A stretch of 20,105 nt of DNA from a virus. Location: positions 1-20,105 of the IMG/VR virus record IMGVR_UViG_3300032897_000532. One strand, given 5' to 3'. Of the stretch, positions 3,579-19,298 are shown piece by piece (position 1 is the first letter of the stretch; every line of letters begins with the position of its first letter). The notes below the pieces were generated by a model. That model searched no databases, was not told the origin of the DNA, and was given only the letters and a program-made list of their open reading frames with translations. Both the position numbers and the translations under genes were made by a program.

Positions 3579-4331
3579 ATGCAGAAGCGATTGATGAGAA
3601 GGAACATGCCTCACTCGCAGTCCTATCGGTTTGACGCCCTGCTGAGGCTGGTCCATCTCACCGTTGAAACCGACGCAATAGAACGGCTCCACGCGGCAAT
3701 CGAACGGCAGATCGGCGCCTCTTCCAGGCGCATCGACAGGGCGAAGGCCAGCGGCAATCATGAATATCTCGACGCGATTGTTGATGATGAATGCGATCAC
3801 ATCGAAGAACTGCTCGGCCTGGCATTCGTGGCGGCGCAAACGTTTATCACCCGTTTCCGAGGCCGGTTGGCATGGGCTTCGGCCATCGTGAAGGATGAGT
3901 TCGGAGCAGGACTCAGCTTTGCAACTCTGCCGAAAGCGTACGAAGTTCTCGCGAGGGGCCGTGCGCTTCCTGCAGGCTCTGCGCAATCGGTGGTCGAAGT
4001 CATCAACGCCGTTGCAAACTACTGGAAACACCAGGAAGACTGGCCCACAACAGAAGAACCCAAGAGCGGGCGCCTGATCACGATCTGGAACGTGCAATCT
4101 CATTTGCTGCGCAAGAACGAGAGGCGCACCATTGAAGTCGTAACAAGCATTGGAATGAAACCAGGTTCCACGGGCAACCTCCGCACGGCGGCCGAGGCTC
4201 TCGGCGTAACCGATTATGCCGACCTGTCGCCCATTCGACAAGAGCTTAAAGTTTGGGCGGACAGTCTTTTCGAGGCGACCCGCGCGGAACTTTCTCAGCG
4301 CAGGGCGTCGGTGACACAGGTCAAGGTCTGA
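3579..4331 (+). CDS. Uncharacterised 250-aa protein, the only plus-strand gene
   Basis: Open from ATG 3579; ATGs at 3594 and 3606 are alternatives, the last preceded closely by AGAAGGA. The product looks like a real soluble, mainly helical protein with a Cys-poor, Asp/Glu-rich middle. Visible landmarks are a helical repeat-like N-half, a segment near residue 146 reading NAVANYWKHQEDW, and a C-terminal helix rich in charged residues. An Asn-x-x-Trp-Lys-His patch of this sort recalls uncharacterised HEPN-like or phage-immunity proteins, but the canonical HEPN R-x4-6-H motif is not evident, so no function is assigned. It diverges from the iteron region and converges on the primase gene with an 11-bp tail overlap (4321-4331), so it is transcribed independently of everything else and may be an added cargo gene. 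Confidence 0.75.
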   Translation: MQKRLMRRNMPHSQSYRFDALLRLVHLTVETDAIERLHAAIERQIGASSRRIDRAKASGNHEYLDAIVDDECDHIEELLGLAFVAAQTFITRFRGRLAWASAIVKDEFGAGLSFATLPKAYEVLARGRALPAGSAQSVVEVINAVANYWKHQEDWPTTEEPKSGRLITIWNVQSHLLRKNERRTIEVVTSIGMKPGSTGNLRTAAEALGVTDYADLSPIRQELKVWADSLFEATRAELSQRRASVTQVKV

Positions 4332-6822
4332 CCACTCTCCACCTCTGTACTTTGGATTTGCGGTCTTCATCCGCCCGCTCAACGAATACTTGGCTTTCGC
4401 CGAAACGCCGGCCGAGTCGCTCAGCGAAGCACTTTCCGAGGCGACGCTGGAAGAACCCCCCAGTCCGGTCCGCCGCGTCTGCAAGAAAGTCCGGCAGGGC
4501 CTCGCGCAAACGCTTGGACTCGCCCGCGTTCGGTATCGCTAGAGCCCTCGCCTCCATCCTCTCGACAATTTCCGTAACGCGAAACGGCTCGCCGCCGAAA
4601 ATGTCCGCAAGCGTTAGGAGAAAGGCCTCCCACTGCGCGGCGTCCGAATCTGACTGCTCGAACATCGTCTCCGCATTGCCGAGGAAACCCTCGACGCCGG
4701 CCAGTTCGAGGATGCCGCCGACCACGTTGCACCAGGATTCGAAACTGCCCAGCGGCCGTACCCTCTTCGGCTTGGGCCGCCCCTGATGAAACCAGTACCG
4801 CGCCAAGATCAGGAGGGCGACGATCAAGTCGCCACGATGCTCTGTTACCCAGGCCCGGAGATTCTCATGCTTGAAGCCCGTTCGATGGAATGGCTTCGAT
4901 TGTTTCGCATCCAAGCGTATCCAGTAACAGCGCCGCGGCAGGTCACCGCCGAGCTGCACGTTGTTCCCGGTGGCGATCCACGCGCACTTCACGGGGAGGA
5001 CGATCCGCTCGAACGTACGGAAGATCCGGTCCGAGATTGTGGTTGCGGTGATCGCGCTACACAACGCGTCGGAATCGAGCCTGTAATTGACGTTGTCGAT
5101 AACTACTACTCCGGTGCCCGAAGCCAGCGCAGTGGTGATCTTCTTGCGCCACTCTTCGGGGTCAGTCGGCGCTGAAAACGTCTCGGCCGCCCGGCCAGTG
5201 GCGATAATGGCGACAACCTCAGCCAACAGCGTCTTCCCGGTGCCTGCCTGAGGCGCGTCGTAGAGAGCGAGCGGCGTAGGGCTGTCGATAGCTGGACGTA
5301 CCAATGGAGTGAGCATAGAGGCGATGGCATTCGCTTTACTTGCGGCGTCCGCGAATGGGAAGTCACTGATAGCTGAATCGATGAGATCCAGCATCACATC
5401 GACATCATCGACCATGGGTGTTTCGGGGATCTCCGGGAGGCGGAGGCCAAGCGCAGGCGCATAAAAAAGGTACGTGGACTCGTCATATCCAGGGCGCGTG
5501 CAGATTGTCCCATCAAGGCGTAGAAACGGGGTCTCGATCAGTGCTTCGATCGGTGGGAACTTCCATTCAGCCGGCGGAAGCGCGAGGATATCTCGAACGA
5601 CATCCAGCGGCGGCGCGCATTCGATGCGATCCCCGTCCTTGCTCAGCTTGTAGTAAAAGCCGCTTCGGGCCATGCGGCCGCGGAGGGCGGCCTCTGAGAC
5701 GTCCGCGATTACGTGGCGGTCGCGTTCATCGCGGATCACGGCCACCATGCGCCCACTGCGGACAAAGAGTTCTGGTGGAGCATTACCCTGCTGGAGTGCG
5801 GCAAGAGCTTCAGCTGTAATCGCTGGAAGTTGCCTGGCTCCCACCCAGATTCCGGGTAGTGTGTCCGCATCTGGATGGTCATGCGGAAAATTTGTGCCAG
5901 CCGGTGACGATTTTCCCTTGGTCGGCTTGTAGAATTCCTTTGTTTGCTCAATGGCAGCCTGGATCGTGCGCTCTCGGTAGTCTTCGCGCTCCAACCATTT
6001 GTCGCGGGCGAGGCCGCTCTGGCGGAAAAGGGCATCGATCCGAGATGAGTCGGGACCAGACCAGAAGGCCAGCATGCAGCACAGCGCCAAGTCGGCCTCC
6101 GATTGAGATGAGTAGATGCCTTCCCAATTACCGGCCCAGAGTGATGCGAACTTCGCGCCATTTTTTGCCCGGCGGGCGTGCTCGATGATCTCAGAGTCGG
6201 TCGGCGCCTCGCCACCGGACACCGGTGGCTTCGAGGCTTTCATCCAGCTCTCGCGCCGCATCAAACCGAGCAGCCAGTCGATTGTCTCTTGATGCTCTTT
6301 GAGTAGTAACGGCGACTGTTGGTAGGTTCGGCCTGTCAGCGCAAAGAATCGGAGTCGATCAAAGAGCCCGATCTGCGCGCGTTTGCCGAAGGGATCGGTC
6401 GGGCCACCGGGGACGTTGAAATTCCGGCCTTTCCCAGGTAAGACGGCGCGACAGAGGATGTGTAAGCCATTGCCGGAAACCGAAACTGCGCGGTAAGTGT
6501 CCTCGAAGCGATCGATGATGTCTCGGGCCCATGGTTGCGGATTGCCGTCGGCGTCCACACTTACGTCCAGGTCCACACCGCAGAAGGGATCGTCAGCTGC
6601 GAAGAAGTAGCCGACGCCGCCGCAACGTTCGGGCTGCTGATCCACCGCGGCGCAAACGACCGAAAATGCAGTCCAGGTTCTCGGATCGTTGCTGGCGGCC
6701 TTTCGTCCGTCGGGCCTGTACGGCACCTTTGTCAGGCGACCATTTCTGTCCGGTTCGACTCGCCAGACACACCACTGATTCCTGGCAGTCAGTTCGTCCG
6801 GGAACCGCGGCGCGTCCTTCAT
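4321..6822 (-). CDS. NrS-1-type primase-polymerase fused to AAA+ helicase
   Basis: 833 aa, ATG at 6822 overlapping the sigma-like gene's stop as ATGA. N-terminal archaeo-eukaryotic primase core: DLD acidic motif at 84-86 (GVDLDVS), SGNGLHIL at 117-124 with the motif-II His, and LFDRLRFFALTG near 153 as motif III. Residues ~205-300 match the helix-bundle domain found in NrS-1-like polymerases (SEADLALCCMLAFW, then IDALFRQSGLARDKWLERE). The C-terminal half is a P-loop ATPase: Walker A APQAGTGKT at 523-531, Walker B VVVIDN at 572-577, sensor-like ATGNN near 617 and an Arg pair near 630. Known relatives prime and extend DNA and unwind the template for phage or plasmid replication; a cytoplasmic replisome role is expected. 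The iteron-like region 0.8 kb away is the likely site of action (inference). Confidence 0.88.
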   Translation of the reverse strand: MKDAPRFPDELTARNQWCVWRVEPDRNGRLTKVPYRPDGRKAASNDPRTWTAFSVVCAAVDQQPERCGGVGYFFAADDPFCGVDLDVSVDADGNPQPWARDIIDRFEDTYRAVSVSGNGLHILCRAVLPGKGRNFNVPGGPTDPFGKRAQIGLFDRLRFFALTGRTYQQSPLLLKEHQETIDWLLGLMRRESWMKASKPPVSGGEAPTDSEIIEHARRAKNGAKFASLWAGNWEGIYSSQSEADLALCCMLAFWSGPDSSRIDALFRQSGLARDKWLEREDYRERTIQAAIEQTKEFYKPTKGKSSPAGTNFPHDHPDADTLPGIWVGARQLPAITAEALAALQQGNAPPELFVRSGRMVAVIRDERDRHVIADVSEAALRGRMARSGFYYKLSKDGDRIECAPPLDVVRDILALPPAEWKFPPIEALIETPFLRLDGTICTRPGYDESTYLFYAPALGLRLPEIPETPMVDDVDVMLDLIDSAISDFPFADAASKANAIASMLTPLVRPAIDSPTPLALYDAPQAGTGKTLLAEVVAIIATGRAAETFSAPTDPEEWRKKITTALASGTGVVVIDNVNYRLDSDALCSAITATTISDRIFRTFERIVLPVKCAWIATGNNVQLGGDLPRRCYWIRLDAKQSKPFHRTGFKHENLRAWVTEHRGDLIVALLILARYWFHQGRPKPKRVRPLGSFESWCNVVGGILELAGVEGFLGNAETMFEQSDSDAAQWEAFLLTLADIFGGEPFRVTEIVERMEARALAIPNAGESKRLREALPDFLADAADRTGGFFQRRLGKCFAERLGRRFGESQVFVERADEDRKSKVQRWRVVRP

Positions 6823-7367
6823 CGGCCGCGACCCGCAGCCGGCTTGAACCCAGCACCCTCGAACGCCGTCCGAATTCGGCGTATTCGTTCATAGACCGTA
6901 GACCTCGGCATGCGAAGGTCTCGGCTCGCTTCGGTCGGCGAATGATCGGTGAGAAATGCGGCAAGGCGACGATCCGCTTCAGGCAGGGACGCCGCGATTG
7001 TTTCGAAGTCCATCCGAAATTCCGCGGCGGGAATTCCATCGAGGCCCACCAGATGGTGCGCCTCCAGGCGCTCAATCTTGAATTTCCAGTGTGGTGCCCG
7101 CATGAGCGAGGCGATACGATTCGCGACAACCCTCTCAACGAACGTTCGCAACGATGCCCGCGACGGGTCGTAGTGCTGCAGCGCCTGCCAGACTGCCGCA
7201 AACGCCTCCTGCTCCAGGTCCTCACGGTCTGGCGTTACAGCCGCCAGTTTCACTGCGGCAGCCGATCTCACACCAGCCGCGCGGCGAATCAGGGGATAGG
7301 CATCCTCGAATCGCTGCAATAATTCTTGTGAACTCTCATGCGTGCGCCCGAAGGCAACTCTCTTCAT
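6819..7367 (-). CDS. Sigma-70-family (ECF-like) factor or derived regulator
   Basis: 182 aa from ATG 7367, chosen over the upstream ATG at 7415 because CCAAGGAGGAAGA stands directly before it. Residues ~47-92 look like sigma region 2 (DREDLEQEAFAAVWQALQHYDP, then TFVERVVANRIASLMR). Residues ~142-167 form the region-4 helix-turn-helix (SPTEASRDLRMPRSTVYERIRRIRTAFE). The region 2-4 linker is longer than usual, with a His/Leu-rich patch near 103. The gene is immediately upstream of and overlaps the primase gene, so the two are co-expressed. It could redirect host RNA polymerase to element promoters such as the paired boxes at 3249 and 19390, or act as a phage-type transcription regulator. It is too short for a housekeeping sigma, and no anti-sigma gene is seen. 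Confidence 0.75.
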   Translation of the reverse strand: MKRVAFGRTHESSQELLQRFEDAYPLIRRAAGVRSAAAVKLAAVTPDREDLEQEAFAAVWQALQHYDPSRASLRTFVERVVANRIASLMRAPHWKFKIERLEAHHLVGLDGIPAAEFRMDFETIAASLPEADRRLAAFLTDHSPTEASRDLRMPRSTVYERIRRIRTAFEGAGFKPAAGRGR

Positions 7368-7512
7368 TCTTCCTCCTTGGCCGAGGAGGAGAACCCTGAA
7401 GGTGGCGCCCGGCAACGAAACAGCGGAGATCGTGGAGGCTCGCCGTCTCTGGCGTCACCCACAAGACCTCCGCTTTGCGGCCAGTCTTTGCCTGGTGCTA
7501 AAACTATCGTCC

Positions 7513-7839
7513 CTACGCCGACTGCTCGATCACGAGCCGGAACGGGAGACCGTGCTTCACTTCGATCACCGCAACCGTACCATCGCCGACGCGGTTCAAA
7601 TGATCGAATAGTTCGGCGACCTGGCTCTTTAGAGCGAAATCATCGCGAGCCAATTCGGGTCGCGGCCCGTTCTCACCGCCGATCTTGATGTCTTGGACAA
7701 TTTTCGGCGCGGGATCGAAGGCGGGTTCACCTGCGTGAACCGCCAAGTTCTCGATCCGGCCGAAGTTGAGCCGCTGCATGGTTTCAAGCAGCCGCCGTCG
7801 TGCGCCGGAGAGCGCCGACTTTGTGTGAGTGCTTGGCAC
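7513..7839 (-). CDS. Uncharacterised 108-aa protein
   Basis: The frame is open from an ATG at 7941, but the GTG at 7839 is preferred: GGGAGGTGAT, a near-perfect Shine-Dalgarno, ends two bases before it. The product begins with a Ser/Thr/Arg-rich helix (STHTKSALSGARRRLLETMQ). It continues with FGRIENLAVHAGEP, a Pro-rich stretch with PAPKIVQDIKIGGENG, an acidic-basic helical region (DDFALKSQVAELFDHLNRVG) and a beta-rich tail (GTVAVIEVKHGLPFRLVIEQ). No family is recognised. It starts the leftward unit leading to the sigma-like and primase genes and is separated from the upstream two-gene unit by a likely terminator, so it probably belongs to the replication/early region. Confidence 0.65.
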   Translation of the reverse strand: MPSTHTKSALSGARRRLLETMQRLNFGRIENLAVHAGEPAFDPAPKIVQDIKIGGENGPRPELARDDFALKSQVAELFDHLNRVGDGTVAVIEVKHGLPFRLVIEQSA

Positions 7840-7850
7840 GATCACCTCCC
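7840..7850 (-). promoter_or_regulatory. Strong ribosome binding site deciding a GTG start
   Basis: Minus strand GGGAGGTGATC precedes the GTG at 7839-7837. GGAGGTGAT matches the full anti-Shine-Dalgarno complement, with five bases between GGAGG and the start codon. This moves the start of the 108-aa gene 34 codons inside its open frame. Confidence 0.65.
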
Positions 7851-7959
7851 GAAATTCGGCGAGGTTGCCGGTTCTGCGGGCGGGATGGAGCGTCAAGTGG
7901 TCATTGTCGTTCCTTGCGACTCCAACTCGTCGCCTGGGCAACGCCTCGAAGTCTTAGTA

Positions 7960-7985
7960 TTTCGCCGTTACAAAGTGTGGCGAAA
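7960..7985. repeat. Inverted repeat upstream of the 108-aa gene
   Basis: Arms TTTCGCC (7960-7966) and GGCGAAA (7979-7985) are perfectly complementary with a 12-bp spacer. It lies in the 248-bp gap 7840-8087, which holds no other gene I can support, about 120 bp before the GTG. No run of T follows, so an operator is more likely than a terminator. Confidence 0.35.
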
Positions 7986-8038
7986 GTGTTTCGGAGGGCA
8001 AGAATCCGAGGGGGATGTAAGTGACTGAAGGACGGGAC

Positions 8039-8086
8039 AAAAAACTTGATTCGTGAGGAATGGTTCTCCGGGTGCGCACGCCAAGT
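8039..8086 (-). terminator. Candidate rho-independent terminator after the two-gene unit
   Basis: Starting just past the TAG stop at 8088-8090, the minus strand reads ACTTG-G-CGTG, a loop of about 21 nt, CACG-AAT-CAAGT, then six T (A run at 8039-8044). The nine paired bases are split by a small internal loop, so the hairpin is imperfect, but the position and T-run fit termination of the 10197-8088 unit. Confidence 0.42.
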
Positions 8087-8087
8087 G

Positions 8088-9083
8088 CTACGGCGAGACT
8101 TTCGCGAGACTATTCTGGGCTGGTTGGTTTCGGCGCACCCAGTTAATTCGATATTTGATGTACTTCGCCACGCGCTCCCGACGAGACGAGTTCCCGGAGC
8201 CAAGGATGTCTTCCGCGATCTCGTCCCAGGTATCCACGCATTCCTGGCTTCGCAGGGATTCCGGGAATACGGCACCGGCGTTCTGAAGTCGCCGGCACAC
8301 TTCGACCAGCCGGGAGGACCAATCCGAACCGATCTCGGATATGACTTCGGCAATCCTGTAATGCTCGTCCGCATTCGCGGGGAAGCCTCTGGGCCTGCGG
8401 CCTGCGGCGTCGGGCATGACGATCGGCCTGCGTCTCTTTATACCCAGTGCGGCGTGCCAGTCTAATGCGAGTCGCCCTTCCGCCGCAGAGGGCGTAAGGG
8501 CAAGAGTTGTTAGCTTGCTTGATGCCAGAATTTGCGCAGCTTCGGTGGACAAACACAGAGCAGCCGGCGTCAGCAGTACGATTCTTCGTTGCGGATCGAG
8601 ACCTGCAAGTCGCCTGCAACGTGCAATCACAGCATCCTCGGTGTGATTCGGAAGTGAAAAGTAGACATCAGCGATTCCCGCCTCATCCACCGATTTCTGC
8701 CCAAGTGAGATGAGGCCATTGTCGTCTCGGAATCCACTTCCCGCGATTCCATTTTCCTTGCGAACCTTCGCAGCCACTCCGACCGCCATCACTTCGTATT
8801 GGCGCACGTCCAATTCGGTCAAAGGAACGGGATCGAAATAGTCATCCTCGCCGGCGACACCGAAAAGCCCACGCGCTGTTTCGCGGACAACCAAGTCTGG
8901 GCCGGGACCGAACCGCTCCGGCCGAGGGATTTCGCTCGCGATCGCAGTCTCGTGCAAGATCGACTCAGAAACAAGCTCGTCAAGCGCCTCCGGTCCGTAG
9001 GCGCTGGCGAACGCGTGCGAGACGACCGGGCAGTCCACTTGGTCGAGCAGATCGAGGACGGCTTGGAGGAGGCTCTCAGCCAC
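8088..9083 (-). CDS. Uncharacterised 331-aa protein, second gene of an unknown two-gene unit
   Basis: GTG start at 9083, with GGAAGA seven bases upstream. The first 8 bp overlap the end of the 373-aa gene, so the two are translationally coupled. The N-terminal third is acidic and helical (VLDLLDQVDCPVVSHAF...). A middle region near 160-200 reads RCRRLAGLDPQRRIVLLTP followed by a helix and LTTLALT, an alternating strand-helix pattern that could be a Rossmann-like half domain. The C-terminus is basic: SSRRERVAKYIKYRINWVRRN near 298-318 looks like a DNA- or RNA-binding helix. No Walker motif, nuclease signature, signal peptide or membrane segment is seen. I do not recognise the family. Setting between a restriction system and replication genes suggests defence or element maintenance (inference). 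Confidence 0.75.
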   Translation of the reverse strand: MAESLLQAVLDLLDQVDCPVVSHAFASAYGPEALDELVSESILHETAIASEIPRPERFGPGPDLVVRETARGLFGVAGEDDYFDPVPLTELDVRQYEVMAVGVAAKVRKENGIAGSGFRDDNGLISLGQKSVDEAGIADVYFSLPNHTEDAVIARCRRLAGLDPQRRIVLLTPAALCLSTEAAQILASSKLTTLALTPSAAEGRLALDWHAALGIKRRRPIVMPDAAGRRPRGFPANADEHYRIAEVISEIGSDWSSRLVEVCRRLQNAGAVFPESLRSQECVDTWDEIAEDILGSGNSSRRERVAKYIKYRINWVRRNQPAQNSLAKVSP

Positions 9084-10197
9084 GGAGGATCTTCCATTTC
9101 CTCAGGTATCGGAACACGTCGTCAGCGTGCTTGACCCTTTTGAACGAAATCTTGTTGGTGCCGCTGAGTTCGATCCGTTTTCCGCGACCGTCGTCAGGGA
9201 ACGTGAACTTGAAGACGGCCCGCTTAATCGCCCCGCCCGACAGTTTCCGGCGCAGGTTGTTCAACTGGAGAGTTTCAAGGACATCCTTTGACTTCACCAG
9301 GAACGACGGCCCGTGTTTCTGCTTGATGGTGAAATACAGTTCTACCAGCGCCGCCGTGTCGCCCGCATCGGTCTCCGGTGCGAAATCCGACGCCCCGATC
9401 ACAGCGAGGTCCAGGCGGCGCGCGGCTTCAGGCCGTTCGAACAAGTTCTCGTCTCCGAGGCAGCACCCCGCGAAATTTTTCCTCAGCGCCGCCTCTTCAA
9501 CCTCAAACCGGGCCTCAATCTCTGCCTGGCCGGTTTTGGTGTTGTAGCTAATGAAGTCCTGCTGAGCTGGCCGCAGAACTGTCGGCGAGACATGGCTGTG
9601 CTTTTGCGAGCCCTTGAACGTGAGCACCGCCTGCATCCGTTTCTCGTGGTAGACGATGAAGTTGACGTATCCGTCCTCCTGATACGGCCTCACGAGCACG
9701 CGATCGCTATTCTTGTCGCCCTTGAACTGGTCGGCAAGTTTCTGACGCAGGTGCTCCGTCGCCGCTGCAAGATCCGTGATCGCCTGCCCCTTCTTTCCCT
9801 GGTAAATCGAGAATCGTTCTGCTTGCTGGAGCGTGCAACGGTCGTAGGCGAAATTGAAAACATCTTCGCGTGCGGTACGAACAGCCAACCCGAGGTGCTC
9901 GACCGTCATCTTGTCGTTGGGATCTGGATCGTAATTGAGATCCCGGCACGCCGATTTGAGCGCTTCGTGCCCGTGTTCGGTACAAAGATCGAATACCCGG
10001 AAGAGACCCTCCATGAAGGCATCCTTGTCGACGCCCTCGCCGTCGGCCAGAAAAGCCTTTAACCCTTCAACATCGAGCGAAGGAATGTCCAAGTCCAGCC
10101 CGTTCTTCCAGAGCTGTGCGTAATTTCGCAGCAACACTTCCTGGCCCTGGAACTTGTCCAGGAAGCGGTCGGCGTTAAATTTCCGGTGCTTAGCCAT
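9076..10197 (-). CDS. Uncharacterised 373-aa protein, first gene of an unknown two-gene unit
   Basis: ATG at 10197 with GAGGG about 9 bases upstream. The protein is highly charged and soluble. Residues 1-60 start MAKHRKFNADRFLDKF and contain a helical pair. A helix-rich section to ~150 follows. Then comes a beta-rich core near 165-250, with VNFIVYHEKRMQAVLTF, a Pro-Arg-Pro step, QQDFISYNTKTGQAEIEARF and a Phe-rich segment ending in LGDENLF. The C-terminal ~100 residues are strand-rich and basic (SGTNKISFKRVKHADDVFRYLRKWKIL). The pattern resembles proteins I have seen only as hypothetical, with phrases like 'YN..TG...I.A' before 'GDE..F'; I can attach no activity to it. It overlaps the 331-aa gene, and a promoter-like sequence precedes it, so the pair appears to be its own unit. 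Confidence 0.75.
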   Translation of the reverse strand: MAKHRKFNADRFLDKFQGQEVLLRNYAQLWKNGLDLDIPSLDVEGLKAFLADGEGVDKDAFMEGLFRVFDLCTEHGHEALKSACRDLNYDPDPNDKMTVEHLGLAVRTAREDVFNFAYDRCTLQQAERFSIYQGKKGQAITDLAAATEHLRQKLADQFKGDKNSDRVLVRPYQEDGYVNFIVYHEKRMQAVLTFKGSQKHSHVSPTVLRPAQQDFISYNTKTGQAEIEARFEVEEAALRKNFAGCCLGDENLFERPEAARRLDLAVIGASDFAPETDAGDTAALVELYFTIKQKHGPSFLVKSKDVLETLQLNNLRRKLSGGAIKRAVFKFTFPDDGRGKRIELSGTNKISFKRVKHADDVFRYLRKWKILRG

Positions 10198-10290: not shown

Positions 10291-10318
10291 ATTCTATCAG
10301 TTTTCCGCAACAAGTCTA
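10291..10318 (-). promoter_or_regulatory. Possible promoter of the unknown two-gene unit
   Basis: Minus strand TAGACT (10313-10318), 16-bp spacer, TAGAAT (10291-10296): four of six and five of six matches to -35 and -10 consensus. It would start transcription about 85 nt before the ATG at 10197. The leader 10198-10290 shows no other feature. It overlaps the end of a doubtful 38-aa frame. Confidence 0.38.
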
Positions 10319-10413
10319 CGAAGGAATGTTCTATCGACGCGCGCCGTTTCGAATGAGATGTGCGTCGAACGGGGCGGTTGCCAGGCATACTTCGGTCGGG
10401 GATACCCCGTCAT
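10297..10413 (-). CDS. Possible 38-aa protein, ATGA-coupled to the McrC-like gene
   Basis: ATG at 10413 overlaps the TGA stop of the McrC-like gene (10410-10412). The product starts MTGYPRPKYAWQPPRSTHIS and ends with an Arg/Leu-rich helix. No domain is seen. The junction type fits the operon style, but any TGA preceded by A gives it by chance. A small hairpin (CGGGG/CCCCG, 10397-10409) lies inside the frame. Confidence 0.25.
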   Translation of the reverse strand: MTGYPRPKYAWQPPRSTHISFETARVDRTFLRRLVAEN

Positions 10414-11678
10414 GCTACGGTCCCAACTTCGAGGCGCGCTAACAGTTGCGGAAGGTGCTCCGAGAGATTTCGGACATCGACCGCGAATAGCCAAGTCCGA
10501 CAACCCGTCGCGGACGCGCCGAGATCGCGTTCCTCATACTGGTTTCCAGGAAAAATCAAAAAAGCGCAGCGCGCGCCCAGTGCGGAAGCATGCGCAAGCA
10601 GCTGATAAAGGTCCGATGGTGAGGGAGTCGTTGACCAGGTCTTGTACTTTACGTCTCCAATAGCGTCGACGACTCCGCTCCGAAGAAAAACCAAATCTGG
10701 ATTTGCCCGGTAGGAGTTCGGTTGCGCCGGAAAGAGTGGGGCATTCTTGCCGAGCTGAGTCGCGGGTTTAACTTGTCCGGAGTACTGCTCCTGAAGCCTT
10801 CGTTGAACTGCGATCTGGAACAGATTTTCTAAATTCAAGAACCACGCTCGCGGTACGGTGTCTACACCTTTGGCTCCATGCTCGAAGCTCTCGTGCGCCA
10901 ACACGACCGACGCAAGGTATAGGAGATCGCGATCCTTCGCTGACTGCGCCGCTGAAGCCAGTTGGACTGCATTCTTGACCAGCCGTTCCCTGCTGCCGAA
11001 AAGGAGCTCGGCGTCCTGGCAGTCCGAGAACATCATAGATAGCCCGCGTGCGACTGCGAGATCCTCGCCTGGTATCGAAACAAGCCGTGCCAGCTTTCCG
11101 ATCTCCCGGAGCGCGGCAGCCAACATCCTATTCTTTATGGTGTCCTTTCGGATCGTGGAGCGCTCAAACGCGAGCAGATGCCGAAGACCCCGAGCTCTCA
11201 ACTTCAAAGTTCGCGTCGTGTTCAGTCTGCCGGAAACCATCGAACTTGCGCTGGGCACCGCTCGGTACTCGAACTCTCGCCCCGCCGAGACATACGCCCG
11301 TGTAATCCTCAGAAATTGCCGAATGAGCAAAGAAATCAAATCGCCCAGATCCGACGCTGAGGAAGGCATGTGTTCGATCCTGAACGAATCGGAAGTTGCG
11401 GATTGCAGCAGAGCGGCAACTGCACCGGGGACCTTCTCTGAGAGGTCGAGGACGAATCGGTCGAGCCTGACGCGACCCACGTAGCAGGATCCTTGAAGGC
11501 GCGCTCTACCTCCGGACAACTGGGATACGACGAGAATATTCCGATCCACGAGCGCCCATAGGCCGGCCTCCGATCGGATCTTTGACCAGATCGAAGCAGA
11601 CAAATCAACAGTGCCCCGCTCAGGGACCGAGACGATGAAATGGCTCAGCTGAGAATGAATTCCGGGGACTGATGCCAT
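10410..11678 (-). CDS. mcrC: McrC-like restriction endonuclease subunit
   Basis: 422 aa, somewhat longer than E. coli McrC (about 350). The N-terminal ~130 residues form the McrC-type regulatory half. The C-terminal half carries a PD-(D/E)xK nuclease: NPDLVF with the first Asp at 328, IGDVKYK with Asp342 and Lys344, and DLYQLLAHA near 356, where the family's conserved Gln sits. In McrBC and LlaJI-type systems this subunit is driven by the McrB-like motor to cut DNA that the motor complex has translocated. The ATG lies 33 bases inside the end of the motor gene, a 34-bp overlap that makes tight coupling likely. It ends the restriction-modification cluster. The sequence is intact, with all catalytic residues in place. 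Confidence 0.85.
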   Translation of the reverse strand: MASVPGIHSQLSHFIVSVPERGTVDLSASIWSKIRSEAGLWALVDRNILVVSQLSGGRARLQGSCYVGRVRLDRFVLDLSEKVPGAVAALLQSATSDSFRIEHMPSSASDLGDLISLLIRQFLRITRAYVSAGREFEYRAVPSASSMVSGRLNTTRTLKLRARGLRHLLAFERSTIRKDTIKNRMLAAALREIGKLARLVSIPGEDLAVARGLSMMFSDCQDAELLFGSRERLVKNAVQLASAAQSAKDRDLLYLASVVLAHESFEHGAKGVDTVPRAWFLNLENLFQIAVQRRLQEQYSGQVKPATQLGKNAPLFPAQPNSYRANPDLVFLRSGVVDAIGDVKYKTWSTTPSPSDLYQLLAHASALGARCAFLIFPGNQYEERDLGASATGCRTWLFAVDVRNLSEHLPQLLARLEVGTVA

Positions 11679-12484
11679 GGATACTCCTGCTCGATCAGGT
11701 CGGCGAAAGGGTGAGGATCAATGAGCGGTCGCCGGATGATGTGACGAATCCTCTCGACCCACAAGCGATGCAGGTCTGGAACTTCGGATGTAACATCGGC
11801 GAATATACCGTGCCCGAACGGCATCAGATGGTCATAGTCGGCGGCGAACTGTTCCTTACATGCTGTGAACACTCGCTGGAGTTGCACGACGACCTTTGCT
11901 GGAAGCGCGGCAGGCTTCAACATTTCAGTTAGCTGCTCTATGGATGGCGGAAAGTCGATCACTCTGAGCCGTCGCAAGAGCGCACTGTCGATTTCTATGG
12001 CAGACCGGTCAGTAGGATTGTAGGTAGCTATGATTGTGAGGTTCTTTGCCACCTCTACCGGCCGCCGGCTATACACCGTTAGGAAGGGCCGGTCCCTATG
12101 CTCTATATACGTCATCAGCTCACCCAGGACCGCGGACAAATTGGCGCGTGTGAGCTCCTCAATTAGTAGAACGTAGCGATGGTCGGGATCTTCGCGGGCT
12201 TGGTCATTCCACTCAAGAAAGATTCCTGGCAATACATTCACGGCTCCACTGCTGTCGATCCGCATGCCTTCTATAAACTCTTCATACGAGAAGGCTTGGT
12301 GAAACTGGACTTCCCTGACCAGAAGCGGCTCGCCGGCGAAACGTTGCGCTGCGATGGACGCCATGAACGACTTCCCTGTCCCTGGGACCCCCGCCAGAGC
12401 GATGATGGATCGAGTTCCCGATCTTTCGCACGATTGAACGACCTCTTGGATCTTCGCTTCCGTGGCACTGCCGTAGTTAGTCAT
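11645..12484 (-). CDS. McrB-like AAA+ NTPase (restriction motor), stand-alone domain
   Basis: 279 aa from ATG 12484, which overlaps the preceding TGA as ATGA; the ATG at 12505 is less likely. Walker A GVPGTGKS at 32-39, the McrB-family segment FHQAFSYEEFIEGMR at 61-75, Walker B LLIEEL at 106-111 followed by TRANLSAVLGEL, and the signature NPTDRSAIEIDSALLRRL at 156-173. The McrB signature normally reads NTADRS; here it is NPTDRS, and the usual Asp-Glu of Walker B is Glu-Glu, so nucleotide preference (GTP in E. coli McrB) is uncertain. At 279 aa it is essentially the motor alone: E. coli McrB (about 460 aa) has an N-terminal DNA-binding domain that is missing here. The neighbouring 276-aa protein may supply target recognition. 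Confidence 0.85.
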   Translation of the reverse strand: MTNYGSATEAKIQEVVQSCERSGTRSIIALAGVPGTGKSFMASIAAQRFAGEPLLVREVQFHQAFSYEEFIEGMRIDSSGAVNVLPGIFLEWNDQAREDPDHRYVLLIEELTRANLSAVLGELMTYIEHRDRPFLTVYSRRPVEVAKNLTIIATYNPTDRSAIEIDSALLRRLRVIDFPPSIEQLTEMLKPAALPAKVVVQLQRVFTACKEQFAADYDHLMPFGHGIFADVTSEVPDLHRLWVERIRHIIRRPLIDPHPFADLIEQEYPWHQSPEFILS

Positions 12485-13311
12485 CTGACGTCCTTCGGCA
12501 GACACGCCGCCTCTGCAATGAACTCGACATATGCGCGCTTCTCGGTGCCGAAGTCACGGTGCCGGTGCCGGATAGCCGCGGCCTCCTGAAGTATTCCTCT
12601 AGTGCGCGGCCTGATCGTGTAATAGCCCTCTACTTCGCCTGCCCGCTTTTCTGCGATGAGGGTCCAGCCGAAAGAAGCAATAGAGATCCAAGGAATAACG
12701 CGATCATTCTTCTTGTCGCCGGTTATGGTTTCTTCACCCATGAGATCAAGATCGTTCTTGAGGCGCGATTCTCGAATTGCCTCGATAGCTTGGTACAGTT
12801 GGTCCTCATTGGTGACCTTGAACATCGCCCGGTTGAGTTCGTCTGAGCTTATTCGACCATCCAGGGCGAACATGGCGCGCCAGATGTAAGAAAACGGAAA
12901 CACGCGCACGGCGGCGTCATACGGTTGGACCCCTATCGGATTCCGCAACTGACAGGCCGCGAGCGCGTACGCAGCATGCCGACCAAGCAACGTTACATTC
13001 TTCTCGGACAGCAGGGGAAGCCATCTCAGGGTCGCCCGCCCGAGTTCCGTTACGTGAAGTGCCCCGCCATCCTCGTACACCAAGCCGGCGGTCTCATAGA
13101 TTTGCCGGTAGTCCCGATATCGTTTCGCATCGGGGACGGCGCCGGCTGTGCCACGCGACCGACTGCGGTCATAGGGGAGCTTCTGCAGAACGTCCTCCTG
13201 CGTCAGGCCATCGCTTTCCAAGAAAGGTTGCAGGTGCCCAAGCGGCTTAGGCAACAATCGGAATGTCGTATGGAGAGAGCCACCCCACTCGGTTCTCGGT
13301 TCTCTTGACAT
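12481..13311 (-). CDS. Restriction-associated protein, probable winged-helix, in the position of BsuMI YdiR
   Basis: 276 aa from ATG 13311, five bases after the stop of the second methyltransferase; the ATG at 13368 would run into that gene and is rejected. The N-terminal ~100 residues read like a winged helix: helix (HLQPFLESDGLTQEDVLQKL), a basic loop with two Arg pairs, helix (KRYRDYRQIYETAGLVYEDG) and a wing-like hairpin ending in HVTELGRATLRWLPLL. The central part holds AMFALDGRISSDELNRAMFKV, resembling a second helical DNA-binding unit, and the C-terminus is basic (RPRTRGILQEAAAIRHRHRDF). Gene order (two m5C methylases, this gene, McrB-like, McrC-like) matches my recollection of BsuMI ydiO-ydiP-ydiR-ydiS-ydjA. 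A role in DNA recognition for the restriction complex is the best guess. Confidence 0.7.
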   Translation of the reverse strand: MSREPRTEWGGSLHTTFRLLPKPLGHLQPFLESDGLTQEDVLQKLPYDRSRSRGTAGAVPDAKRYRDYRQIYETAGLVYEDGGALHVTELGRATLRWLPLLSEKNVTLLGRHAAYALAACQLRNPIGVQPYDAAVRVFPFSYIWRAMFALDGRISSDELNRAMFKVTNEDQLYQAIEAIRESRLKNDLDLMGEETITGDKKNDRVIPWISIASFGWTLIAEKRAGEVEGYYTIRPRTRGILQEAAAIRHRHRDFGTEKRAYVEFIAEAACLPKDVR

Positions 13312-13316
13312 AATGA

Positions 13317-14447
13317 TTAAGCTGTCGGCCGCGAGAATAGCGGAAGCTGATCGACGCCTGTGGTGCAAACGTCTTGGTCAGCCCCGGCTGGTTCGGAACG
13401 TAAGAACGAGAGATAGCTGAACAACGCTTTGCCGATGACTTGAGCGAGCCGCGGCGGAACGGCATTCCCGATCAACGCCGCCATCTCCTCTTGGCTGCCG
13501 CTGAAGCGAAATGTGTCGGGGAACGTCTGGAGACGCGCGCCTTCGCGAAGCGTGATGTTCCTGTGTGAAAAAGGATGCGCGAACTTCCCCCGCGTGAAGC
13601 TGTCAAACCGGGCTGTTATGGTTCCGGCTGGCTGATTGGCATCAAGGCGGCCATAGACGTATCTGTGACCAATGCGGTCGGGCCCGTCCTTGTGGCAGTC
13701 AACTCTCATCTCAACGGGCAGACTCTCAAAGCCCTTGCCAGGGGGGATGAGCTTGAGGCGTTCAATATTGGTGGGAGAAAGTCGATGCCTTTTGTGCAGC
13801 GGATCAGACGGTTGCGGAGAATAGTCCTCCGGTGGCTCCGGGAGGTCGCCGATCGCCTTCCACACCGTAACATAAGAATCGCTGTCATGAGTTGGGCGCG
13901 GAAAAACGAACGGGACTGGGACGTCGCGCCTCCATCCGTAATAGAGAACGCGCTTTCGGAGTTGCGGAACGCCGTAATCGGCGGCGTTAACACGAATCGA
14001 TCGCACTTGGTATTGGGGATAGAGCGCCTGTTCGAATCTGTGGGCGGTTGCGCCCCCCCGCTTTCCAAGCAGGCCCAGGACGTTTTCCATCAGGAAGACA
14101 GTCGGCTGAAGCTCGTTGACGTATCTCGCGAACTCCAAAACCAGGTCATTGCGATCGTCTGCGTCTTCTCCAATTCGCTGTACGGAGAACCCTTGACAGG
14201 GCGGCCCGCCGGCGACCAGGTCGACCTTCATATCAGAATTGCCGGTCAGCGACAAGAACTCCTGTGCCGAGAGCTTTCTGATGTCATGGTGCAGCGCGGG
14301 ATGATCGAAGTTCAGGCCGTAGCACTGGCATGCGAGCTTCCAATTGTCGAGGGCGCCCAACACGTTGAAGCCCGAGGTCTGTAAACCCAGGGACAGCCCG
14401 CCGGTGCCGCAAAACAGATCTACGGCGGTGAACATCGTGTTCGTCAT
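13317..14447 (-). CDS. DNA (cytosine-5) methyltransferase 2 of the R-M cluster
   Basis: 376 aa; ATG at 14447 (a second at 14435). All main C5-methylase motifs are present in order. Motif I is DLFCGTGGLS at 10-19 (SAM binding). Motif IV is GGPPCQGFS at 80-88, with catalytic Cys84. Motif VI is MENV at 120-123, motif VIII QLRKRVLYYGW near 162 and motif X IGNAVPP at 326-332. The target-recognition region, about 200-275, is different from that of the upstream methylase. Length is standard for the family. It should methylate the fifth carbon of a cytosine within the site protected from the McrB/McrC-type nuclease. Two methylases are usual in LlaJI/BsuMI-type systems, where each may cover one strand of an asymmetric site. 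A 66-bp gap (14448-14513) separates it from its partner. Confidence 0.93.
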   Translation of the reverse strand: MTNTMFTAVDLFCGTGGLSLGLQTSGFNVLGALDNWKLACQCYGLNFDHPALHHDIRKLSAQEFLSLTGNSDMKVDLVAGGPPCQGFSVQRIGEDADDRNDLVLEFARYVNELQPTVFLMENVLGLLGKRGGATAHRFEQALYPQYQVRSIRVNAADYGVPQLRKRVLYYGWRRDVPVPFVFPRPTHDSDSYVTVWKAIGDLPEPPEDYSPQPSDPLHKRHRLSPTNIERLKLIPPGKGFESLPVEMRVDCHKDGPDRIGHRYVYGRLDANQPAGTITARFDSFTRGKFAHPFSHRNITLREGARLQTFPDTFRFSGSQEEMAALIGNAVPPRLAQVIGKALFSYLSFLRSEPAGADQDVCTTGVDQLPLFSRPTA

Positions 14448-14513
14448 GCTCGAATCCGTTGCGTTGATCTACAATTATGCACTTTCCGGCTCATCAGAGG
14501 TGCAGCGCTCTCT

Positions 14514-15950
14514 CTACCACAGCCGTTCCTGCCCGCAACTCAAATCACCCGAAGGCCCCGTCCGCCAATCGCGGGCCTTCAGAGAAGGGATCATCCGCGA
14601 AAAAGAATGTCCCAACGGGCGTTCCACGCCGTGATCCACTTCGGATTCCGGCAGTTCCACACCTAGAAGCTCTCCTAGGATGTGCATCGCAAGATGAGCG
14701 GCGAAGGTAGGCGGCACGGCATTACCAACCTGCCTGAAGCGCTCATCTAACGAGCCATGGAACCAATAGCTTCTTGGAAACCCTTGAAGCACGGCCGCCT
14801 CTCGGACTGAAAGCCCCCTATCCTGTTCCGGATGCACAAACCGCCCGCTCGCCGGGTTGCGTGAATAGGCCGTGATCGTGATCGCCGGTTTGTCCCACGA
14901 CAATCGGCCGTACACGTCCTCGTAGGCGGCTTTCCCTTGGCGTTCCGCGACACGTCGTAGGCACGCCGGGCCGACATCCGCAGGACGGCTACCACCGTCT
15001 TTCGGCACAGCGCGTATTGTCGCCAATGTGGATTCCTGGTGACCGGCGGTATAGTGCATCTCATCTTTGGCGAATCGCTCGCCGGCCTTGATCCTAGGAA
15101 GATCCCCGATCGCGTCCCGGACGGTTCGGTACTTTGGACGACCTAGGAATCCGCTTGGAGCCCTGAACGGTTGCCGCATGGCCAGAAGCACGGCTCGGAA
15201 CCTCTCCTGCGGTACCCCGAACGCAGCCATGTTGTGGACGCCGATGTGGACGTGATAGCCGGCCCTTTTTAAGATGGCGCGCGCCTCCAAGACGAATGGC
15301 CAATACTTGTGCGTCAATAGCTCCGGCACATTTTCTACGACCACAGCCTCAGGACCGAGCCGCGCCGCGATCCTCGCAAAGTCGAGGAACAATGAATTCC
15401 GCTGATCGGATTCCCCTGCGCTATTGCGGTGTGATGAGAATCCCTGACATGGGGCGCAGCCGATCAGAACGAAGGGCAGCCCTCTCCGCGGCTCTGCTAT
15501 TTGCTGCAGTTTGGCGAATGCCGTCTGGCGCCGCGCGATTTCTGCCACGTCCGATTCTGCCGGTCTGAGCGCCAGATTACGCTCATAGGACCGATTCGCG
15601 ACGTGGTCAATATCGACAGCGTGGACAAGGTCAAACACAGGAAGCAGGCCGTTCACGGCACGGAACCCCGTTGACATCCCACCGCATCCGCTGAACATGT
15701 CGATGACCTTGACGGGGCCGTTCGAGCGGCCTTCTGAGAGGTTCCAGTAGCGATCAAGATTCAGAGCGAGTTCGATTCCGCAGACGCGTGCCGCCATCCG
15801 TGGGTCCAGTCGCTTGCCACCACCGCTCAGCTTACGTCCCTTTGCAATCACGGATGCTGTCAAGTCTCGGAGCAGCTTCTCGGGCTGACCGGCTGCTATT
15901 CGCCCAGCGACCTTTCGAGCCGCGCATGATGGTTGTTCTCCGGTAGGCAT
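14514..15950 (-). CDS. DNA (cytosine-5) methyltransferase 1 of the R-M cluster
   Basis: 478 aa. Its ATG shares one base with the TAA stop of the ribbon-helix-helix gene (TAATG), so the two are coupled. An 80-residue basic N-terminal extension precedes motif I DMFSGCGG at 84-91. Motif IV is GCAPCQGFS at 164-172 with catalytic Cys168, motif VI VENVPE at 205-210, motif VIII QERFRAVLLA at 248-257 and motif X QVGNAVPP at 407-414. The target-recognition region spans about 270-360. The 60-residue tail after motif X, with a charged end, has no known counterpart. The catalytic set is complete. The N-terminal extension might bind DNA or contact a partner; some C5 methylases use such extensions as operator-binding domains, but this one shows no clear HTH. 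Confidence 0.93.
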   Translation of the reverse strand: MPTGEQPSCAARKVAGRIAAGQPEKLLRDLTASVIAKGRKLSGGGKRLDPRMAARVCGIELALNLDRYWNLSEGRSNGPVKVIDMFSGCGGMSTGFRAVNGLLPVFDLVHAVDIDHVANRSYERNLALRPAESDVAEIARRQTAFAKLQQIAEPRRGLPFVLIGCAPCQGFSSHRNSAGESDQRNSLFLDFARIAARLGPEAVVVENVPELLTHKYWPFVLEARAILKRAGYHVHIGVHNMAAFGVPQERFRAVLLAMRQPFRAPSGFLGRPKYRTVRDAIGDLPRIKAGERFAKDEMHYTAGHQESTLATIRAVPKDGGSRPADVGPACLRRVAERQGKAAYEDVYGRLSWDKPAITITAYSRNPASGRFVHPEQDRGLSVREAAVLQGFPRSYWFHGSLDERFRQVGNAVPPTFAAHLAMHILGELLGVELPESEVDHGVERPLGHSFSRMIPSLKARDWRTGPSGDLSCGQERLW

Positions 15951-16147
15951 TAGACTTTCCTCGCGGTTTGCTCGGATGAACCGAGCTTTTCCTTCTCTCT
16001 TTCCTTTTCGGCATTTAGGAAGTCGCGGACGAGCTTCGCGATGAGAGTGCTCTTCTTGAAACCATGCTCCCGACAGTAGTCGGCGAATCGCCTAAACTCC
16101 TCATTCGGCAGGAGAACCGTGATCTTGCCAATGTTGGATTTGGCCAT
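15950..16147 (-). CDS. Ribbon-helix-helix (Arc/CopG-type) regulator of the R-M operon
   Basis: 65 aa from ATG 16147; longer upstream starts would run through the promoter and operator and are rejected. The protein reads MAKSNIGKITVLLPNEEF: a short basic lead, a beta strand KITVLLP, then helix FRRFADYCREHG, turn FKKS and helix TLIAKLVRDFLNAEKEREKE, the classic RHH plan, in which paired strands insert into the major groove. A lysine/glutamate-rich tail follows. The promoter 22 bp upstream carries a perfect 16-bp palindrome between its boxes, a fitting site for an RHH dimer pair. The most likely role is autorepression and timing of the R-M operon, comparable to the C-proteins of other restriction systems. 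Confidence 0.75.
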   Translation of the reverse strand: MAKSNIGKITVLLPNEEFRRFADYCREHGFKKSTLIAKLVRDFLNAEKEREKEKLGSSEQTARKV

Positions 16148-16169
16148 TTCGCTTATTCTTCGCCTCTGT

Positions 16170-16198
16170 AGGATACCGCAAAAGTGCGCACTTTTCAA
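16170..16198 (-). promoter_or_regulatory. Promoter of the RHH-methyltransferase-restriction operon
   Basis: Minus strand TTGAAA (16193-16198), exactly 17 bp, TATCCT (16170-16175). The -10 ends 22 bp before the ATG at 16147, leaving a leader of roughly 15 nt. It is the best sigma-70-type promoter seen in the window and lies in the 91-bp gap between vsr and the RHH gene. Confidence 0.68.
16180..16195. promoter_or_regulatory. Palindromic operator within the R-M promoter
   Basis: AAAAGTGCGCACTTTT is a perfect 16-bp palindrome filling most of the 17-bp spacer and reaching into the -35 box. A bound protein would block RNA polymerase. The adjacent RHH protein is the obvious ligand; the methylation state of its GCGC centre could also matter. 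Confidence 0.68.
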
Positions 16199-16238
16199 TA
16201 CCTTTTCGCAGTACTCCGGAGAAAGGCTGATTCGAGTG

Positions 16239-16652
16239 TCAGGACTGCGCTTTGAGAAACCGCGAAACGACGCGCTCCAGCGTCCGGTCGGCAGCGAGCT
16301 GACACTCCCACAGAACGAGCACCTTCCACCCATCGTGTCGCAATTGCCGTATCGCCTTTGCATCTCGCCTAACGTTGTTCAGCAGCTTCTCCCTCCAATA
16401 CGAAGCGCGCGATTTTGGCAACGCCGATCGAACGCATCCGGTGTGCTGATGCCAGAAGCAGCCATGAACAAAGATCACCCTCTTCAATTTGCGAAAAACC
16501 AGGTCCGGCCGGCCAGGGAGGTCGGAGCAGTGAAGACGGTACCGAAATCCCATTGAATAGACGAGCCTTCGCACTAGCAGCTCGGGACCGGTGTCGGCTG
16601 CGCGTACTCGCCTCATGATCTCGCTGCGTTCTTCTGGGGTGAAGCGATCCAT
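16239..16652 (-). CDS. vsr: Vsr very-short-patch mismatch endonuclease
   Basis: 137 aa, the usual Vsr length; ATG at 16652 with AAGGA three bases upstream. Visible family residues: N-terminal RSEIMRRVRAADTGPE (Glu24), PGRPDLVF with catalytic Asp50, IFVHGCFWH with His63, Cys65/His70/Cys73 and Cys117 as the zinc site, and NVRRD with Asp97. Vsr nicks 5' of the T in T:G mismatches made when 5-methylcytosine deaminates. It therefore protects the sites methylated by the two adjacent C5 methylases. It sits just upstream of the R-M promoter and is read from the integration-module side, or from a promoter not seen in the 32-bp gap before it. The Thr preceding the catalytic His in E. coli Vsr is Val62 here. 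Confidence 0.93.
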   Translation of the reverse strand: MDRFTPEERSEIMRRVRAADTGPELLVRRLVYSMGFRYRLHCSDLPGRPDLVFRKLKRVIFVHGCFWHQHTGCVRSALPKSRASYWREKLLNNVRRDAKAIRQLRHDGWKVLVLWECQLAADRTLERVVSRFLKAQS

Positions 16653-16684
16653 CTATCCTTCTTGAGAAATCAAGCTTATCGCAA

Positions 16685-17092
16685 TTAGCCCACACGCCAC
16701 TCCGAACGCCAGTGCTGACGTTGATCGCCCCAATGAACAAGCCCCGCTAGCGGCCTGAGCAGGGTTTCGCGCATCGTAGAGCACGTTGCGATCCCGTTCA
16801 GTTCCAGAATCTCCATTTGGATATCCGGCGCCAAATTAAGCAGGTTCATTATCTGGGTGATCCGCGCACGAGAGACGTAGCCGAGACGTGCAAGGTCGGC
16901 GTAGTCCCGGACCTCGCCACGGTCAACCATGTCCTGGAATTTGATTGCGAGAGCCATCAACCGCGTGATCCTAGGGATGCGCGGTGGGTCCGGCACCCTG
17001 GGCACAGCCGGGCTGCGATGCTGGCCGCCCTTGCGGCCCTTCGCCGGGGCAATGGTGATTTCGATCTGGAGCATCTCGTCGTTTGTCTTCAT
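16685..17092 (-). CDS. Small HTH protein of the recombinase module (ParB-like helix-turn-helix)
   Basis: 135 aa. The ATG at 17092 overlaps the recombinase stop as ATGA, so translation is coupled. The first 40 residues are basic and Pro-rich. Residues ~41-92 are helical with a clear HTH: RGEVRDYADLARLGYVSRARITQIMNLLNLAPDIQ, close to the KorB/ParB-type HTH in wording. The C-terminus is Trp/Arg-rich (LVHWGDQRQHWRSEWRV). Proteins of this kind follow large serine recombinases in many integrated elements. It could be a recombination directionality or regulatory partner, but that is inference from position. No catalytic residues are seen. Confidence 0.72.
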   Translation of the reverse strand: MKTNDEMLQIEITIAPAKGRKGGQHRSPAVPRVPDPPRIPRITRLMALAIKFQDMVDRGEVRDYADLARLGYVSRARITQIMNLLNLAPDIQMEILELNGIATCSTMRETLLRPLAGLVHWGDQRQHWRSEWRVG

Positions 17093-18627: not shown

Positions 18628-19144
18628 GCTTCCTCCCCGGCTTACCGCCCAGGCCGAAAAACGCGAAGCCGTTCCACGGCGTGCCGGTAGCTTGCCGAAC
18701 GGCGGAACTCAGGGAACGGTGGATCTGGCCACTGTACTCGAAGCCGTCCTCCCGAACGCGCACGACGACATCTTTTCCCCGGTAGCGTCGCAACAGTTCG
18801 GTGCCGGGCATCGGGAGCCGCGGGTCCTCGGTCGGCGCGACGCGCGCTTCGATGGTGCGCGTTTCGTCCAGGTCCTCCTTCAAGAAGTTCTTGGGAGCCC
18901 GGATTCTGAGGTCGGCGTCGTTGGCGATCTCAAGCGCGCGTCGGCGCGCGCGTTCCGAAAGGCCGCCGTAGGCATTCGCCTGCATGCGCCAGGCAATGCG
19001 CCGGAAGAGGAACTGTTTGTGATTCGACCGGCTCGATTCACCGAAGACGTCTCGGTACTTGTCCTTGAGCTGCCCGACGGTCATGTGGCGCAAGGCCTCA
19101 ATCTCTTCCCGCAGGGCCGTTGATCTGTTGGTCTCTGTTCTCAT
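18611..19144 (-). CDS. DUF2924 protein, recombinase-associated
   Basis: 177 aa from ATG 19144, with GGTGG nine bases upstream; a GTG at 19156 in the same frame would overlap the previous gene by 8 bp and is the alternative. Residues ~10-75 carry the DUF2924 pattern (LREEIEALRHMTVGQLKDKYRDVFGE, then SNHKQFLFRRIAWRMQANAYGGLSERAR). A charged helix and a beta-rich tail follow (GTELLRRYRGKDVVVRVREDGFEYSG, then WNGFAFFGL). DUF2924 proteins regularly sit directly before serine recombinases in phage-like elements. Their function is not established; a DNA-binding accessory to integration or excision is a fair guess. The overlap with the recombinase supports joint expression. Confidence 0.85.
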   Translation of the reverse strand: MRTETNRSTALREEIEALRHMTVGQLKDKYRDVFGESSRSNHKQFLFRRIAWRMQANAYGGLSERARRRALEIANDADLRIRAPKNFLKEDLDETRTIEARVAPTEDPRLPMPGTELLRRYRGKDVVVRVREDGFEYSGQIHRSLSSAVRQATGTPWNGFAFFGLGGKPGRKHGSHQ

Positions 19145-19148
19145 AGCG

Positions 19149-19298
19149 TTAACCACCAGTCACATGAGGGCGGGAAGTCTCGGCACAGTCAACTTCCTTC
19201 TGGAGAGTTTCAGGGAAGCGCAGGCGCACGTAGGCGGCAGCAAGGATTGCGGCGATCTGGCATATGGCTTCGGCGCGATCAGCATCGCGTTCTTTCAT
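19149..19298 (-). CDS. 49-aa leader protein of the recombinase operon
   Basis: ATG at 19298 preceded by CTAAGGAGACCGCTC, a strong AAGGAG Shine-Dalgarno seven bases from the start; stop TAA at 19149-19151, four bases before the ATG of the DUF2924 gene. The product begins MKERDADRAEAICQIAAILA and continues with a helix rich in Ala/Leu/Arg. It is a small, partly amphipathic helical protein with no domain recognised. The ribosome site and tight spacing make it a likely real first gene of the operon. Confidence 0.62.
   Translation of the reverse strand: MKERDADRAEAICQIAAILAAAYVRLRFPETLQKEVDCAETSRPHVTGG

Follow-up and report, generated by a model that had tools for sequence, protein, structure and literature searches.

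Introduction

RdgC binds DNA, as do CENP-N and CENP-L, two proteins of the kinetochore. RdgC assembles into a dimeric ring on DNA and inhibits RecA. The complex of Chl4 and Iml3, the yeast forms of CENP-N and CENP-L, resembles both RdgC and TBP (PMC4080450; PMC5095916), and RdgC and DinD are both regulators of RecA (PMC4457935). Here, we describe a pair of adjacent genes, A and B, the first of which encodes a protein predicted to have a fold of this class. The pair was found in IMG/VR record IMGVR_UViG_3300032897_000532, and we refer to the whole stretch analyzed, 20,105 bases at positions 1-20,105 of that record, as the window.

Results

A Conserved Gene Pair Without Family Assignment

Gene A (9076-10197, 373 aa, ATG start) and gene B (8088-9083, 331 aa, GTG start) lie on the reverse strand of the window. 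The coordinates, lengths, and 8-bp overlap given in the initial annotation are confirmed by our ORF calls, and both start codons are consistent with those of the relatives. The annotation had also viewed the pair as a self-contained module, and a transcription unit of this kind finds no support at either end. The promoter-like match at 10291-10318 is present, but it is a single match against a chance expectation of 0.7, and the hairpin proposed as a terminator at 8039-8086 was missed by a terminator scan and folds no better than shuffled sequence (z = 0.07).

The absence of known motifs, by contrast, is confirmed. Neither A nor B matches Pfam, PADLOC, PHROGs, or NCBIfam, and no match was found to any nuclease, NTPase, or toxin family, or to PDB sequences, profiles included. 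The same family libraries, PADLOC among them, returned nothing for the distant relatives. Thus, both protein families and the module that they form are unannotated in every library tried. The literature searched holds no description of such a module, an absence that open-access coverage makes weak evidence.

When viral contigs and the genomes of bacteria and archaea were scanned, 20 close relatives of A were identified, 54-65% identical over the full length, together with one distant phage relative at ∼29% identity. In every case, a relative of B follows directly. A check of two of the longer contigs showed terminase and portal genes of known families, and several of the other contigs carry relatives of those genes; these are therefore phages or prophages. 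A first A profile detected weak relatives in four further genomes among 392 Planctomycetota, and a profile extended with these gave matches in 30 of 201 genomes of one planctomycete order and in 20 of 161 of another. The phyla of genomes G001 and G012, when sampled, gave only the cases already known. Of the planctomycete loci, 40 were retrieved for comparison. Relatives total ∼60 (20 close and ∼40 distant for A), drawn from virus contigs, metagenome-assembled genomes (MAGs), and one isolate, many of them from Planctomycetota. Searches by tblastn with A and B against plasmids and with A against phages gave no match, and a scan of viral contigs using B alone gave nothing that was confirmed.

Is B a constant partner of A? 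In 58 of the 59 loci with enough sequence, an ORF of 180 aa or more begins at the end of A on the same strand, and 57 of these ORFs overlap A. The sole exception is G020 (locus L008), where A is truncated and the B behind it is intact; its A gene (oriented coordinates 16563-17501) runs for 312 aa in frame before a stop, either through a frameshift in the phage or through an assembly error. Because a comparable downstream ORF also follows 87 of 232 control genes, an ORF by itself is not rare, and the homology of B was tested by profile. A profile built from phage-type B proteins recovered 15 planctomycete B proteins at E ≤ 0.01, the best at 7e-12, and matched zero non-B genes. Since A is conserved over its full length among the relatives and B adjoins it throughout, the pair is more than a chance arrangement. 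The earlier view of a conserved two-gene unit of undescribed families is thus borne out.

Host assignments should be read with caution. G007 and G008 have identical loci (L015 and L016), yet their MAGs are labeled Omnitrophota and Acidobacteriota, and L018 and L020 (G010 and G012) give the same matches under labels of different phyla. Such cases look like binning errors or shared phages, so the host labels of these MAG loci are unreliable. Homologs found mostly alone, outside mobile or defense regions, would have counted against the first reading of the locus; instead, nearly all copies lie in mobile elements. The elements that carry A-B are phages, satellites, and genomic islands, and they come from several bacterial phyla.

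The Pair Forms the Boundary Between Cargo and Early Genes

In gene direction, the reverse strand of the window encodes a DUF2924 protein (18611-19156), a large serine recombinase (17089-18627), Vsr (16239-16652), two C5 methyltransferases (13317-15950), and McrBC-like proteins (10410-12505), followed by A and B. From Vsr to the McrBC-like genes, the region forms a variable cargo slot (10410-16652), which neighbors the pair and excludes it. Between the McrB-like gene and a C5 methyltransferase lies a 295-aa gene (12481-13368, also reverse) that has no family match in Pfam or PADLOC; its product is perhaps the DNA-recognition part of the modification-dependent restriction cluster. Past B, the same strand carries a small gene (7513-7941, ORF call; cluster c8, common to some relatives), a sigma-70-like gene (6819-7415; Pfam Sigma70_r2), and a primase/helicase-type replication gene (4321-6822), which a domain match shows to include an NrS-1-polymerase-like domain. 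This domain is a helix-bundle domain. The early region begins after A-B with the sigma-like gene, and this order is conserved.

This layout is the usual one in the relatives. Upstream, an integrase or serine recombinase is usually followed by defense genes, often by a switch gene, and then by A-B. Downstream are genes for sigma-like or AlpA-like, exonuclease-like, Sak4-type AAA_24, DUF669, helicase, and primase proteins. In the small integrative elements L137, L141, and L145, A, B, an AlpA-like gene, a primase gene, and an integrase gene lie close together. A gene at 991-2535 of the window encodes a ParB-like N terminus fused to an adenine-methyltransferase-like C terminus, and its relatives (cluster c4) recur downstream of A-B in other phages.

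The upstream switch gene encodes LexA in 10 loci (8 of them distinct), DinD in 3, and an XRE repressor and/or an ImmA-type M78 peptidase in 13. The LexA and DinD examples tested score above curated cut-offs, and the M78 example scores above that of Pfam. LexA, DinD, and ImmA are absent from the window and from many relatives.

The upstream defense genes vary, from type I and III restriction-modification, Hma, and DrmD-like helicases to type I-E Cas7 and Cas4-Cas1; in some elements (L149, L144) they are absent and A-B is retained. No relative has the cargo of the window. In L115, the distance from the end of a DUF499/HmaC-type gene to A is 61 bp. Besides the window, G001, G021, L086, L088, L114-L119, L124, L127, and L141 have such a variable slot, located between the integrase gene and A-B. 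In the planctomycete group L114-L120, the pair closes a gene block, often a defense block, and no recognized phage gene follows it. Translated tRNA-like tails had raised the suspicion of a tRNA integration site after A-B in L114-L119; ARAGORN found none.

These arrangements qualify the first description of the pair as lying inside a defense cargo block. The part that stands is the upstream side, where restriction genes adjoin the pair in the window; on the downstream side, sigma-like and primase genes of phage type follow, which makes the pair the border of the cargo rather than a part of it. The proposed physical link with defense genes is seen just upstream of the pair in many relatives, and it may be accounted for by a cargo slot that lies beside the core module.

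A Predicted Fold Resembling RdgC and CENP-N/L

The structure of A was modeled with AlphaFold2 from 20 sequences (pLDDT 87.3, pTM 0.78). The model begins with seven helices (residues 9-123), followed by a beta-alpha-beta-beta-beta-beta-alpha unit (residues 128-247) and a similar second unit (residues 281-367), and it contains the beta-rich core that had been anticipated from the sequence. By our reading of the order of elements, the two units are TBP-like halves.

Twelve fold matches in the PDB reach E ≤ 0.001, and every one is to Escherichia coli RdgC or to human or yeast CENP-N/CENP-L. The best is RdgC (2owl; Foldseek E 6e-7, probability 1.00, TM 0.37-0.44), and the N-terminal half of CENP-N (6eqt) aligns over 201 columns with a TM of 0.52. 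In a viral structure library, the named top matches are phage RdgC-type proteins. The TM-scores of these matches are modest, at about 0.3-0.5. At the sequence level, no relationship to RdgC was detected. A Pfam scan gave no hit to PF04381, and comparison with 12 RdgC sequences by hhalign returned probabilities of 0.2-0.4% with both the 20- and the 59-sequence A profiles. This twice-negative profile comparison led us to reject A as an RdgC family member by sequence, and an early guess that A is a WYL-domain protein found no support in the model and the fold search. The predicted structure thus places A in the same fold class as RdgC and CENP-N/L, a likeness at the level of fold alone.

A Constant Domain and an Exchanged C Terminus in Protein B

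Protein B has two parts. Its first ∼210-215 residues are common to the relatives, and the remainder occurs as several mutually unrelated types. In the window, alignments place the conserved N-terminal domain at about residues 1-215 (8439-9083, reverse strand), the part recognized by the B-specific profile, and the variable C-terminal part, with a putative DNA-binding role, at about residues 216-331 plus the stop codon (8088-8438, reverse strand). A Cys-rich, zinc-ribbon-like stretch is present in the first part of 36 of 58 B proteins. The C-terminal type of L002, L003, L009, and L010 matches the phage 434 repressor (E 0.001), and that of L014 has a weak likeness to an excisionase-type helix-turn-helix (HTH) domain (HTH_17, E 0.005). 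The model of a third type, the B of L015, has a likeness to OmpR/AfsR-type regulators that is below significance, and the fold search with this model gave no match with E below 0.07. The C terminus of the window's own B is basic, and neither the viral-contig scan nor the alignments found relatives of it.

Two sister phages, G001 and G021, illustrate the exchange. Their recombinases are 94% identical, their A proteins 90%, and their sigma-like proteins 80%, whereas their B proteins are only 40% identical and have different C termini. At the DNA level, similarity starts at the start of gene A, ends just past A, and resumes at the sigma-like gene. Judged from these sequences, the pattern is that of a putative exchangeable specificity determinant beside a constant partner.

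Element-Specific Repeats Follow Gene B

Of 53 loci, 38% carry some 7-mer three or more times in the 150 bp past B, with both strands counted, compared with 6% of 139 other intergenic windows of the same loci (p about 5e-7, which is only a guide because the words were chosen from the region past B and related loci lack independence). Enrichment there extends to inverted repeats (62% vs 35%), and some of these dyads could be terminators. No enrichment is seen in the 150 bp upstream of A, with three or more copies in 4% of loci. The repeats past B are iteron-like, and the repeat words differ between elements (CGGTAACG, TTTTGCAG, CATTTGCA, ACTGTAAC, GGAATTGCAG, and GCGCGGTGT). In G013, L117, L125, L147, L149, and L151, all copies within the examined sequence lie past B.

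The repeats are clear in many relatives and weak in the window, and many relatives have no simple repeat. The window's candidate site (7957-7994), between B and the small gene, consists of the dyad TTTCGCC-N12-GGCGAAA, with arms at 7979-7985 and 7960-7966; this 7-bp dyad (7960-7985) is the only one there, and 10% of shuffles of that stretch give such a dyad.

Individual loci show further elements. Within 300 bp past B, L147 and L149 have in common one further repeat copy after the cluster. Both also have a hairpin-like GGAGGT stretch directly before the sigma-like gene, possibly a promoter or an RNA element. In G001, a perfect inverted repeat, GTGAAAC-N14-GTTTCAC, lies ∼30 bp before A (oriented coordinates 18811-18838).

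Discussion

Our preferred reading, which we hold tentatively, is that A-B is a sequence-targeted DNA-binding complex that regulates the early operon at the point where the element leaves dormancy. We infer such a complex from a computed combination of features: an invariable pairing, the clamp-like predicted fold of A, a variable and DNA-binding-like B, local repeats in the relatives, and a gene order that puts the pair at the switch and replication position. In this mechanism, A would be the constant subunit, a clamp-like protein with two TBP-like halves, and B would be the targeting subunit, whose N-terminal domain is common to all elements and whose C-terminal DNA-binding domain would be swapped between them. 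B would bring A to the small cluster of repeats that immediately follows gene B. Once formed and bound, the complex would regulate the early (replication) operon that starts at this cluster; we also infer the direction of that regulation. Where LexA, DinD, or XRE plus ImmA lies directly upstream, it would couple A-B to DNA damage. The users of such a switch would be temperate phages, satellites, and related islands.

Several observations weigh against this reading of A-B as a switch. A has no sequence similarity to RdgC, its TM-scores are modest, and the B model has no significant match. The site in the window is weak, the window's B has a C terminus of its own without relatives, and many relatives lack a simple repeat. 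LexA, DinD, and ImmA are missing from the window and from many other loci. Repressor genes usually diverge from the early operon, and the co-directionality of A-B with that operon therefore counts against a switch as well.

A second explanation, possible but on the unlikely side, is that A-B is a replication initiator, in which B binds iterons (an origin) past its own gene and the clamp A opens or marks that origin. Repeat clusters that lie right past B and not elsewhere in the examined sequence would suit such a role, as would a primase/helicase gene close behind the pair, which follows almost directly in the small elements L133, L137, L141, and L145. The swap of B together with new repeats would likewise fit initiator-origin pairs. 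However, the family libraries searched reveal no Rep-type domain in A or B, the sites are few (three to five copies) and occupy the position expected of the next operon's promoter, and L114-L120 have no replication gene after the pair. A more ambitious proposal, which we regard as unlikely, is that A-B represents a new class of targeted DNA clamp that acts on element-specific repeats through an interchangeable targeting subunit and licenses replication of the element.

A distinctly improbable third explanation is that A-B modulates RecA or recombination in the manner of RdgC, either as a control on the SOS response or as an aid to phage recombination. A mobile element, ICEBs1, is reported to dampen the host DNA-damage response (PMC11841131). 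The RdgC-like fold of A, the LexA or DinD genes directly upstream in 13 loci, and the Sak4-type and exonuclease-like genes downstream are consistent with RecA modulation. Yet A falls outside the RdgC family by sequence, and this explanation leaves unaccounted for both the changing DNA-binding part of B and the repeats past it. The anti-phage defense system proposed in the initial annotation is very unlikely and probably not what A-B is, since the pair stays while the defense genes that adjoin it in many elements change or are missing, what recurs beside it is the element's own machinery in fixed order with replication genes, and neither PADLOC nor any nuclease, NTPase, or toxin family matches it.

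The likely kind of function, a switch or an initiator of a mobile element, is one that is already known. If A proved to be a loaded clamp, the module would be more than a variation on that known function, and the idea of a constant clamp with an exchangeable targeting subunit and a nearby repeat site lends itself to direct tests. A-B recurs steadily in the mobile elements of little-studied phyla, and it marks a place where these elements store defense genes, making it a possible anchor for finding new defense systems. Finally, the predicted fold and domain order of A bear on the origin of kinetochore CENP-N and CENP-L; if the clamp reading is true, A would be the bacterial equivalent of CENP-N not only in fold but also in the order of its domains.

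It is useful to contrast A-B with the described systems that it most resembles. RdgC (PF04381), also carried by many phages and plasmids, is the best structural match to A in the PDB and among viral models. A differs from it by an extra helical N-terminal domain, an obligate partner B, and the lack of profile-level sequence similarity. CENP-N and CENP-L of the inner kinetochore (Chl4 and Iml3 in yeast) give significant fold matches, and the predicted order in A, a helical domain and then a TBP-like one, may correspond to that of CENP-N, whose N-terminal helical domain is pyrin-like. However, A has no match to them among PDB sequences, and CENP-N/L is a eukaryotic heterodimer of two related proteins, whereas B, judged from the L015 model, is not CENP-L-like. 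Switches of the ImmR-ImmA or LexA/CI kind share with A-B their position, and XRE plus M78 or LexA is often found directly upstream of the pair; one type of B, moreover, has a 434-repressor-like HTH. A-B itself is neither a repressor-protease nor a peptidase, and it is co-directional with the early genes. Pfam finds no HTH plus S24 peptidase and no XRE with an M78 partner in the window's A and B, and in the relatives these are separate upstream genes. Initiator-iteron and ParA-ParB-parS modules are unlike A-B in protein family, as neither A nor B belongs to Rep, ParA, or ParB, but the layout seen in many relatives is like theirs: a gene pair followed by a local, element-specific repeat cluster.
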